From positions 434,001 through 498,000 of the forward strand of contig OY282456.1 in the NCBI GenBank assembly GCA_958296225.1: a stretch of 64,000 nt of DNA. The letters are read 5' to 3'. Below, piece by piece: positions 49,631-58,327 of the stretch. The DNA is from an uncultured Dehalococcoidia bacterium (GTDB taxonomy: Bacteria; Chloroflexota; Dehalococcoidia; Lucifugimonadales; UBA3495). A program made the position numbers and the translations under genes. Numbering within the stretch: position 1 is the first letter of the stretch; every line of letters starts with the position of its first letter. The notes under the pieces are model-generated. The model was not told where the DNA came from. It did no database searches and saw nothing but the letters and a program-made list of their open reading frames with translations.

Positions 49631-50388
49631 TAGGGCGTGTCGTCATATTATTTTGGCCCACAGCGCCAAGCCCGTATCCGGCAAATTGCCAGGTATGACG
49701 CCGCATTTTTGGCATACCGTGTCGCCACCTCCCCGCCATTCCTGGAACTTGCCAAACCCGTTCGCCACCAAATGACGCGCCTGGTACAAATCCGCGTCAT
49801 AGTCCTGAGGCTCACGCCGACTCCGCTGCGGCGGTAGCACGGCGTCATGCCATCCGCACGCGCCGCCGCCAGCATCTGATTAGTGCCATATCCCTTGTCA
49901 GCCAGCAGCGCCGCCGCCGGGGTATCATCCGCTATCGTCCCCGACGTTATCACCATCCGCACCGGCATCCCGTGCGCGTCCACCACCGGATGCAGCGTCG
50001 TATTCAGCCCCCTTTAGTGCGACCGACGGCCTGATTCCCGCCCCGGGCGCTCGTGCCGTGCTGGTGTACTTTGATCTAACTGGCGTCAATCAGCAGCCTC
50101 TCAAAATCGGGGTCGTCAACCAGGGCGTCCTGCAATTCGGCCCAGACGTTTTTATTGCGCCCGCGGATCAAGCGGCGGTGGGTGTTGCCCCCAGTCGCCG
50201 TAGTCCGGGGGCCAGTCGCGCCAGGGGGCGCCGGTGCGCAGCACCTAGAACACGGCGTTGATGAAGCGGCGGTTGTTCTGTGCGGGGCACTCCACTTTGC
50301 CCTTGCCGCCGGGGAGCCGGGGTTCCAGGATTTGCCAGGCGCGGTTGGAGATGTCATGACGGTGATAAGTAGCGCTAGCGGTGGACAC
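49631..50388 (-). pseudogene. Decayed IS5-family transposase with left IS end
   Basis: Starting near GTG 50388, the fragments read YHRHDISNRAWQILEPRLPG, GKVECPAQNNRRFINAVF, then a TAG (50245-50247). Later pieces in other frames give VDAHGMPVRMVITSGTIADD, ALLADKGYGTNQM, DYDADLYQARHLVANGF and KNAASYLAI. All are IS5-type transposase blocks, so at least three frameshifts and a nonsense mutation inactivated it. The terminal sequence TAGGGCGTGTCGTCA is at 49631-49645. No matching inverted end is found on the right, so the copy is truncated. Confidence 0.9.
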
Positions 50389-55089: not shown

Positions 55090-56163
55090 CTACCCCGGAA
55101 CCTCAATTTTCTGCGTCACCACACGGGTTACGCCCCAGCCGGCCAGCCAGGCCGAGTGACGTCCGTCGCCGCCGGCCACCACAATCACGATGTCGTCGGC
55201 CTGGGGCGCGATGGGCACCATAGTATCGGGCTTGCTGTCGTCAATCCAGGCCGGATAGTTGCGGTTGCCCCAATGGCCCAGGCCGGACAGTTCGGCGATG
55301 GACATTCGGGCGTTGGCGTAAATGTACTCGCGGACGTCTTTCTTGGTCAGGCCGTCGGCGGCGATTTCGGCGGCGTGCTCCGGGCTGATTACCAGCGTTA
55401 CCTGCGCCCCGGTGCCAATCTGGTAGTAGTTGGAAAAGCCGGTGGCCCGCGTTCCCTGCACCAGCGTGTTCAGCACGTCGATGCCCCGCGATACGGTGGT
55501 TTCCATAATGGGATAGAAAGCGCGGATGGCGTGGAGCGTAACCATACTGTCGCCGGGGTCGAGGCCCAGCTCCACGTGGCGCGGTTCCCAGGGGCTGCGC
55601 GCCTCGTTTTCGGCGAAGCAGAAGGAATAACGGCCCGGCATTGCCAGCGTCGCCTTGTCCATATCGCCGATGATGAGGCCGGCCACGTTGCGGACGAACA
55701 GGCGCAGGGCGCGGCCGATGGTGGCGTTGGCCCGGTAGCCGGGGCCGAAGCAGCCGGAGTCGGCGTTGATGCCCAACCGTTCCGCAATCGGGCCGTTGAC
55801 GATAATCACCGGAGCCGCGCCGCCCGTGGTCGCCTGGCAGCCGGCCAGGTTGAAGGCCGGCTGCAACGCCGCTTTCACGCCGGCTACCACTACCGGGAAA
55901 TACTCAGGACGGCAGCCGGCCATCACCGCGTTGATGGCGACCTTTTCGATGCTGACCTCGGCGTTGGAGGGCTGGGCCACCCCCAGGGATTGGGACGGGT
56001 CTTCACCCCACGGCCCCAGCATCCGGCGGACAGCATCCTCGGTGGCCGGCACGACGGGCATACCGTCGGTCCAGCCCTGCTCTTCGTAGTAATCCTGTAT
56101 CGCATCGTAAGAGTCGGGAACGTCGATACGCCGGGAAGTAAGGGCAGGGATGTTGCTGGTCAT
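55090..56163 (-). CDS. UGSC-locus partner protein, unknown function
   Basis: A 357-aa soluble protein with GGAG 9 bases before ATG 56163. It has several conserved-looking cysteines: MAGCRPEYFPVV, NLAGCQATTGGAAPVIIVNG and SGCFGPGYRANATIGRALRL. The segment NVAGLIIGDMDKATLAMPGR and the C-terminal VVAGGDGRHSAWLAGWGVTR suggest a metabolite-binding alpha/beta fold. I recall such proteins being encoded next to UGSC-motif (seleno)proteins, here 135 bp apart on the same strand. Together they may form one oxidoreductase or carbon-compound processing unit; this is inference. Confidence 0.7.
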   Translation of the reverse strand: MTSNIPALTSRRIDVPDSYDAIQDYYEEQGWTDGMPVVPATEDAVRRMLGPWGEDPSQSLGVAQPSNAEVSIEKVAINAVMAGCRPEYFPVVVAGVKAALQPAFNLAGCQATTGGAAPVIIVNGPIAERLGINADSGCFGPGYRANATIGRALRLFVRNVAGLIIGDMDKATLAMPGRYSFCFAENEARSPWEPRHVELGLDPGDSMVTLHAIRAFYPIMETTVSRGIDVLNTLVQGTRATGFSNYYQIGTGAQVTLVISPEHAAEIAADGLTKKDVREYIYANARMSIAELSGLGHWGNRNYPAWIDDSKPDTMVPIAPQADDIVIVVAGGDGRHSAWLAGWGVTRVVTQKIEVPG

Positions 56164-56298: not shown

Positions 56299-57111
56299 CT
56301 AGCCGGCATGGGATGCAACATTGCCACTTCGCTGGATAACCTCTAATACGACGTGGTCGTGCACCTTTAGGGTGGGGTTGTTCCGGGCGGCCTCCACTAG
56401 CGGTAGCGGAAGCGATGCTGCATCCATCGTACCCGCCTTGACATTGTTGAGCCAAGCGTTGACCTTCATGTCATGCCCTTGTTTGAATCGCGATTTAGGA
56501 TTCTTGTCCTCGCCACAGCCGCACAAACATTGAGGGTAGAGGGTTTCCTTGGTTGCCTGCGGATTAGGTTGCTCATCCTCGTTGGTCAGCATATTGGCAA
56601 TCCGGCTGGCGTAGTGGCGGGCCAGCTGGCGAACCTCCGGGATGGAGCGCGGCGCCAGCGGGCTGGGCAGGGCCAGAATCGGCACGGTGGGCATTCCCAG
56701 GGACGACGCGCGGGCGTGAGCGGCCCGGGTGAAACTCTCGGTGATGACGCTGACCGACGGGATGCCGCGGCTTTCGGTAACTACTGTGTCGTGGAGACCC
56801 CACGCCGTGCAGCTCCCTCAATCCGCGATGCCATGCACCACCGCATCGCATTGGGCCACCAGTTCGTCGATAGTCGCGTCGGAGCAGGGGGCGCTGAAGC
56901 TGAACTTCCGCAGGTACACCACCTTCGCGACGGCGTATTCCTCTTCCAGAATGACCTGCAACTCCTGTAGGAAGTTGTCGGAATGGTACTTCCGGTTTTC
57001 CAGCAGGCCGATGGTCTTGCCGGCCAGAGCGGGCAGGCGGTCGGCGGCGGCCCGTTCGGCGGTTTTCTGCTCCGGTCGCGGGTCCAGTATTTGAATCGTG
57101 GCAGTTGTCAT
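56299..57111 (-). CDS. UGSC-motif selenoprotein (in-frame TGA read as selenocysteine)
   Basis: A 270-aa protein including Sec at residue 98, encoded by TGA 56818-56820. AGGAG precedes ATG 57111 by 6 bases. Up to the TGA the reading is VAQCDAVVHGIAD; it continues in the same frame as GSCTAWGLHDTVVTESRGIP to TAG at 56299. The Sec-Gly-Ser-Cys motif is known from UGSC-family (seleno)proteins. Residues ~1-180 are this domain. Residues ~190-270 are an added tail, LYPQCLCGCG...SRFKQGHDMKV, with a CxCxC cluster. Redox catalysis is probable; the substrate is unknown. A SECIS hairpin follows the TGA. Confidence 0.9.
56790..56820 (-). promoter_or_regulatory. Bacterial SECIS element (UGA plus hairpin)
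   Basis: After the TGA (56818-56820) come 13 nt, then CGTGG-GGTCT-CCACG (56790-56804), a 5-bp stem with a GGTCT apical loop. In E. coli fdhF the SelB-bound loop is also GGUCU and begins 18 nt after the UGA, the same distance as here. This supports recoding rather than termination. Confidence 0.85.
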
Positions 57112-57190: not shown

Positions 57191-58327
57191 TCAGCCCAGC
57201 ATCTGGAAGTGCTTGCCTTCGGTTTTGATGGCCGGGGCGATTATCATTTCGGTCTTGTGGAAGTCGCGCACGGTGTAGGCGCCGCACATACCCATGGCGA
57301 CGCGCAGCGCGCCCACCAGGTTCTGGGTGCCGTCGGTTACGCTGGTGGGGCCGTGCATCAGTTGTTTCAGGGTGCCCTTGGTGCCCACGCTGATGCGGGT
57401 GCCGCGGGGCAGTTCGGGGTGAGCGTTAGCCATGCCCCAGTTGTAGCCGCGGCCGGGGGCCTCGGCGGCCTGGGCAAAGGGCGTGCCCAGCATCACGCCG
57501 TCGGCGCCGCTGGCCATGGCCTTGCAGACGTCGCCGCCGGTGCGCAACCCGCCGTCGGTGATAACGCTGACGTAGCGTCCGGTGCGCTGGAAGTAATCTT
57601 CCCGCGCCGCCGCGCATTCCAGCGTCGCGGTAACCTGGGGGACGCCAACCCCGGTAACTTCGCGGGTGGTGCAGGCGGCGCCGGGGCCGACGCCGACCAG
57701 CACGGCGTCGATGCCGGTTTCCATCAACTCGCTGGCGACGCCGTAGGTGACGCAATTGCCTACCACTACGGGCACTTTCAGGGAGCTAGTCAGTTCCGAG
57801 AAAATCAGGCCCCGGTAACTGCGGGAAACATGGCGCGCGGTGGTTACGGTGGACTGCACAACGATGATGTCGGCCCCGGCTTCCACGGCCAGCGGGCTGA
57901 ACTGCTTGGTGGTCTGGGGAGTGAACGCCATGGCGGCGATGGAGCCGGACTGTTTGATTTCCCGCACGCGCTCGCCAATCAGGTTTTCCCGGATTGGCTC
58001 GCTGTAAACCTCCTGGAGGTATTCGGTAACCTCGTCCTGGTCCATGGAGATAATTTCTTCCAGCACCGAATAGGGGTCTTCATAGCGAGTGTACAGTCCC
58101 TCGCCGTTGAGCACGCCGAGGCCGCCCATCTCGTGCATCAACCTGGCGATACGGGGCGACACCGAGCCGTCCATGGCGGAGGCAATCACCGGCGCGTCGA
58201 AAGAGAACTGACCAATGCTCATTTGCGTGGCGGTCATTTCCGGGTTGATGGTCACTTCGCCGGGGACGATGGCAACTTCGTCAAACCCGTAGGAGCGGTC
58301 CAGTTCTTTGAGCAAACGCCTGGCCAT
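57191..58327 (-). CDS. guaB3: GuaB3-family IMP dehydrogenase-related protein
   Basis: A 378-aa TIM barrel without CBS domains. The catalytic cysteine loop [15 protein letters not shown] (C219) and [20 protein letters not shown] (phosphate loop) mark the IMPDH/GMPR family. The N-terminus [20 protein letters not shown] and the C-terminal [20 protein letters not shown] mark GuaB3. GuaB3 proteins from actinobacteria and cyanobacteria have been shown or proposed to act as IMP dehydrogenases. GGTGACACCATGG surrounds the start at 58327. Confidence 0.9.

Follow-up and report, generated by a model that had tools for sequence, protein, structure and literature searches.

A predicted UGSC selenoprotein of an uncultured Dehalococcoidia bacterium and its conserved neighbour as a candidate two-subunit selenoenzyme

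In GrdB and PrdB, the selenium-carrying proteins of glycine and proline reductase, a selenolate cleaves a carbon-nitrogen bond of a substrate that is held with the help of a pyruvoyl subunit, and the selenocysteine insertion sequence (SECIS) hairpins of bacteria follow the rule of a G in the first loop positions. Another selenoprotein group, the UGSC proteins, ranks among the most abundant selenoproteins of marine metagenomes, and its function is given as unknown, in the accessible parts of two accounts (PMC2398784, PMC9402790); the first of them, from 2008, describes UGSC as a thioredoxin-like fold (PMC2398784). In this work we have analyzed a UGSC gene in a stretch of 64,000 nucleotides (the window) from an uncultured Dehalococcoidia bacterium (assembly GCA_958296225.1, contig OY282456.1, positions 434,001 to 498,000). 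An earlier examination made without database searches, here called the sequence-only reading, had proposed an unannotated selenoprotein at this place. Beyond that proposal, the window gene is one of eight UGSC genes of its genome and is linked to a partner gene. The explanation of the whole that we favour, with some reserve and on comparative grounds, is that the UGSC protein with selenocysteine (Sec) at residue 98 and the partner protein would form a two-subunit selenoenzyme, with a selenium domain akin to the one in GrdB and PrdB. The elements concerned are as follows.

57111-56299, minus strand: UGSC gene, from ATG at 57111 to the stop codon TAG at 56301-56299, by direct reading of the sequence.
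56820-56818, minus strand: in-frame TGA, the sole one in the frame, codon 98, predicted to encode Sec from the sequence, its conservation in orthologues and cysteine (Cys) in aligned distant relatives.
56820-56809, minus strand: codons of the UGSC motif, read from the sequence.
56804-56790, minus strand: SECIS-type hairpin with a stem of five base pairs (CGUGG/CCACG) and the loop GGUCU, 13 nucleotides past the TGA, from sequence and conservation.
57123-57118, minus strand: AAGGAG, likely ribosome-binding site, from the sequence.
56578-57111, minus strand: family domain of the UGSC protein, residues 1-178, including the predicted Sec98, from PF24696, NF041046 and 11 orthologues.
55090-56163, minus strand: partner gene of an uncharacterised family, 357 amino acids (aa) from ATG at 56163; the list of open reading frames (ORFs) starts it at TTG 56178, giving 362 aa.

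The sequence-only reading had located the TGA within UGSC, with 172 further codons past it, and the stem-loop CGUGG-GGUCU-CCACG 13 nucleotides past the TGA, and direct reading gave the same positions and the same number of codons. The read-through product passes the NCBIfam model NF041046, 'UGSC family (seleno)protein', narrowly (125.9 bits, cut-off 125) and the Pfam model PF24696 widely (169.2 bits, cut-off 25). The UGSC selenoprotein itself is therefore of a known kind, as the sequence-only reading had stated, and the window gene is, as judged by these models, a further member of an already known family. Its 11 orthologues, in records with Dehalococcoidia, Chloroflexi/Chloroflexota or SAR202 in their titles, are 86-91% identical to the window protein over residues 1-175/178, and the TGA is retained in all of them. 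Over codons 99-177 the 11 comparisons gave 64, 47 and 257 differences at codon positions 1, 2 and 3, respectively; since third-position differences dominate, this part of the frame is under protein-coding selection. The 'clear coding character' that had been ascribed to everything past the TGA holds for codons 99-177; the 92 codons at the end form an open frame with homologues but have a lower content of guanine plus cytosine (GC), both overall and at third codon positions (GC3). The alignment to UGSC members that had been suggested as a check finds either Sec or Cys at precisely residue 98: distant relatives carry Cys there, so that Sec and Cys exchange at the UGSC position, and Cys98, Gly99 and Cys101 are invariant in two alignments of 14 and 17 sequences.

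The window gene combines an in-frame TGA with a SECIS hairpin having G in the first loop positions. Among related genes the full stem was found in 46 of 47 Sec genes, where 2,000 synonymous-codon resamplings gave an expected 3.9 on average and never more than 11, and in one of seven Cys genes, where the same resampling test gave 0.13; the Sec rows of this count are related to each other and therefore not independent. The count leaves out L019 and L031-L037 as duplicates, and L093-L095, L097 and L141 contribute no row. Rechecking brought in seven more Sec loci, of which six have full stems (L058, full; L135-L140 from the phylum, five full and one with four pairs), and one Cys locus with a full stem (L091), which brought the totals to 52 of 54 Sec genes and two of eight Cys genes. 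In the eight paralogues 97.5% of the stem cells pair, and of the five pairs two, the third and the fifth, change on both sides. Several results weigh against the hairpin as a mark of Sec decoding: two of the eight Cys genes, both haloarchaeal and L091 among them, also form the stem, the window hairpin alone is not unusually stable compared with shuffled sequences (z -0.77, -0.33 and -0.81), and a search of Rfam with it returned no family match, the best rows being unrelated at E 3.1. Because the stability is ordinary and Rfam silent, conservation of the stem was used as evidence, and stability was dropped. The folding check proposed in the sequence-only reading thus came out in two parts, with a stem conserved through compensating changes and a folding energy that is ordinary on its own.

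The source genome, a single contig of 3.97 Mb, contains the selenocysteine machinery that the host had been expected to possess, each component scoring above its cut-off: tRNA-Sec (66.4 bits, cut-off 47, with a CUUCAAA anticodon loop), selA (547.7 bits, cut-off 268), selB (351.8 bits, cut-off 242) and selD (372.5 bits, cut-off 125). The selD gene (contig 3437634-3438557, L028) has one in-frame TGA of its own. We predict that UGA 98 of the window gene is very likely decoded as Sec, since the machinery is present, the TGA is kept, third positions are biased past it, relatives carry Cys, and the stem is conserved with covariation. TGA is a stop by default, and gene-prediction databases show the Sec copies as fragments or omit them, as would be expected if translation ended at 97 aa and the rest of the frame were dead; the third-position bias past the TGA, its presence in 11 of 11 orthologues, the conserved stem and the occurrence of all four Sec genes in the genome make such a true stop extremely improbable.

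The partner protein matched no family in Pfam or NCBIfam at E up to 1, and 62 members of its family gave nothing better than E 0.046 in the same libraries, yet 7984 of 7999 scored database proteins match it. A member of its family is linked to six of the eight UGSC genes of the genome, the window gene included, being adjacent in five cases and fused in one. Of 29 loci from relatives, taken with no more than 1.5 kb of flank, 28 contain the partner, and it accompanies UGSC in each of 16 named loci, which are those of the 11 orthologues, one from Archaeoglobi in the Cys form and four from sphingomonads, in which UGSC and partner make a single protein of 587-600 aa in the Cys form. Of 24 plasmid records seven were examined, and in three of them haloarchaeal plasmids show a 'UGSC family (seleno)protein' next to a 'hypothetical protein'; the plasmid neighbours include CoA transferases, TRAP and tricarboxylate transporters and isocitrate-lyase-like enzymes, neighbourhoods that are compatible with organic-acid catabolism and name no substrate. 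A fusion of a UGSC selenoprotein to a conserved uncharacterised domain, 'Unknown_1', has likewise been described from ocean metagenomes, and this domain may or may not equal the window partner, as far as the accessible part of that account goes (PMC2398784). In the accessible portions of the literature under the UGSC family name neither the partner nor a link to glycine reductase is mentioned.

We consider it probable that the UGSC protein and its partner form a functional pair. Against this, no partner was found in the stretch taken around two of the eight UGSC genes, and two of the eight partner-family genes of the genome have no UGSC. The partner genes without an adjacent UGSC match lie at contig 2887789-2888793 and 551492-552463, and a further partner paralogue match (contig 3386671-3387675, L133) holds one in-frame TAG. 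The frame upstream of the UGSC paralogue in L031 resembles, by eye, an insertion-sequence-type transposase frame at window positions 50076-50357; an insertion may have removed the partner there, because the orthologous loci have a partner gene at that place. The two partnerless UGSC genes, and the reading of UxxC as a redox motif, would suit a stand-alone thiol or selenol oxidoreductase, a peroxidase or thioredoxin-like protein as the 2008 description suggests, of which the partner is merely a frequent neighbour. Fusion or adjacency of the partner that spans archaea to sphingomonads argues against that view, as does the predicted model of the UGSC protein, a flavodoxin-like alpha/beta fold in which Sec98 opens helix 99-114 after strand 90-96. 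The structure matches listed for this model include flavodiiron, response-regulator and lumazine-synthase chains and no thioredoxin chain, which in itself excludes nothing. On balance we find a stand-alone oxidoreductase unlikely.

The kinship of the UGSC domain was examined by profile comparison. The UGSC profile aligns with those of GrdB and PrdB, its Sec column in register with theirs (hhalign, E 9.6e-6 and 5.2e-5); no column-shuffled profile out of 300 each reached the real E value (best shuffle 0.0028 for GrdB and 7.2e-4 for PrdB), and with the four motif columns masked the E values were still 1.4e-4 and 1.5e-4. That a single shuffle can misfire was seen in the GrdE control, where one profile among 60 with shuffled columns scored a spurious E of 4.4e-18 across 33 columns. 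The GRDB set consisted of 22 loci including L069 (5 long and 17 short), leaving out L098, the fragments L104 and L105, and L122-L126. Like GrdB and PrdB (PF07355, TIGR01917), the UGSC proteins have Sec in register ahead of a helix, a similar helix-strand pattern after it and a motif of the UxxC or UGxxT type. Sec copies of GRDB genes occur in the taxonomic class of the source organism, and one is present in the source genome. Unlike GrdB and PrdB, the UGSC product does not score against the GRDB models, lacks the N-terminal domain of GrdB and has a partner unrelated to the GrdE-like neighbour. From the profile similarity the UGSC selenium domain appears related to the Sec domain of glycine and proline reductases. 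What speaks against such kinship is that the hhalign probabilities are middling (83% and 67%), that the best PrdB shuffle reached 7.2e-4, that the UGSC product scores 11.9 bits against the TIGR01917 cut-off of 602.2 and gives no GRDB (PF07355) row in Pfam at E up to 1, and that the partner is not GrdE-like by profile, leaving the gene with no GrdE/PrdA-like pyruvoyl neighbour. As a candidate GrdE relative the partner was ruled out, the profile probability against six GrdE-like frames being 0.05. Elsewhere in the genome a PrdB-like gene of the GRDB family (contig 631461-631877 and downstream, L069) has a frame that reaches a TGA reading UPLC and is likely another selenoprotein.

Against solved structures the partner gave no sequence match and no clear fold match. 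The best Foldseek row of its model was the two-subunit fumarate hydratase of M. jannaschii, a class I (iron-sulphur) enzyme, at E 1.2e-4; the superposition is poor (TM 0.23) and there is no sequence match to the partner. This row, together with the nearly invariant Cys89 and Cys187 of the partner, would fit a hydro-lyase-like enzyme, distantly similar to class I fumarase, for which UGSC serves as a redox activator or repair subunit and not as the catalyst; we regard this as improbable.

In the two-subunit selenoenzyme that we favour, UGA would be decoded as Sec98 with the aid of the hairpin just downstream, and Sec98 is predicted to sit at the start of helix 99-114 in the flavodoxin-like fold. 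A small substrate would be held mainly by the partner protein, the selenolate would attack a carbon-heteroatom or similar bond of that substrate, and Cys101 may then resolve the selenolate adduct. Bond cleavage in the manner of GrdB, with its chemistry and substrate drawn by analogy, is a tentative proposal. Compared with the UGSC family as described by NF041046 and PF24696, the window gene shares the passing of both models, UGSC with Sec or Cys and a bacterial-type hairpin past the UGA; it differs in being one of eight copies in one genome, in the private C-terminal tail of its protein and in a linked partner that neither model covers.

PF24696 matches the source genome at eight places, each with one TGA. 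Among 60 relatives, the genome itself included, UGSC matches were found in 47: the 36 genomes of the same family each have between 2 and 13 copies, and of the 24 from the rest of the order 11 have at least one, every UGSC row among the matches listed having one TGA. A scan of 400 genomes of the phylum, with at most eight candidates scored per genome, found UGSC matches in 42, and 91 of the 96 rows had one TGA; 29 of these rows have frames of at least 536 aa, the length expected of fusions, and are candidate fusions. Because these copy numbers are high in comparison with the 33 UGSC selenoproteins in 26 organisms given in the accessible part of a 2016 survey (PMC5029168), we take this lineage to show a marked UGSC expansion. 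Around five other paralogues the neighbouring genes vary (e.g. acyl-CoA synthetase, SDR, HpaB, RecA and Tgt), and no substrate emerges from them or from the seven plasmid records. An AhpD-like gene (PF02627; L031:6924-7487, contig about 2632923-2633486) whose in-frame TGA reads CHYU adjoins the UGSC paralogue L016 and a gene for an FlK-type thioesterase, and would add a second selenoprotein to that cluster.

Two further features lie within or next to the window gene.

56299-56577, minus strand: in-frame tail, residues 179-270 and stop, with a CxCGCG...F..GHD motif, absent from orthologues and of lower GC.
57191-58327, minus strand: guaB3-type gene related to IMP dehydrogenase (TIGR01304, 431 bits), not claimed as part of the system.

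The sequence-only reading had proposed a selenoprotein of 270 aa; the Sec gene is supported, its decoding being predicted, and the family domain covers residues 1-178 only. The remaining 92 codons are open, lie outside that domain, have no match in Pfam and are absent from all 11 orthologues, whose protein ends at residue 178-179. Their GC is 54.5% against 64.4% in the core, and their GC3 is 0.61 against 0.78 and 0.85. Tail matches occur in four of the 60 genomes, its own counted, and the relatives are stand-alone CxCGCG proteins from the same genus, from another genus of the family and from elsewhere in the source genome; this small CxCGCG...F..GHD protein type stands alone in a few genomes (L087-L090) and is a fused tail in the window. 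At the same place nine of the 11 orthologous loci have an ORF of 239-272 aa with an endonuclease/exonuclease/phosphatase-like start (one was tested: PF03372, E 1.2e-10), one has a shortened version and in one none was recognised by the script. The guaB3-type gene is upstream of the orthologue in all 11 loci, and the order clpC-guaB3-UGSC-partner-dnaE is otherwise conserved where contigs reach. Judged from sequence comparison, the tail probably arose by recent in-frame fusion with the gene of a small CxCGCG protein and is likely dispensable for catalysis. Its lower GC, its absence from every orthologue and the rating of the assembly as 7.75% contaminated might point to an artefact of assembly or contamination; this is quite improbable in view of a genome assembled as a single contig, tail relatives both in the genus and within the source genome itself, and flanking genes in the same order as in relatives.

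Taken furthest, and rather speculatively, UGSC and its partner would constitute a two-subunit class of enzymes, widespread and so far undescribed, in which a small GrdB-type domain with selenium or sulphur sits on a new protein family; it would cleave carbon-heteroatom bonds in catabolism, and one Dehalococcoidia family would have expanded it to as many as 13 selenium-dependent copies per genome. The partner family itself runs to thousands of proteins, and the Pfam and NCBIfam libraries searched contain no model for it. The partner, the natural fusions, the archaeal Cys versions, the plasmid copies and the kinship with GrdB and PrdB together give a testable proposal for the function of UGSC, and a lineage with eight or more UGSC copies per genome would be a good place to test it.
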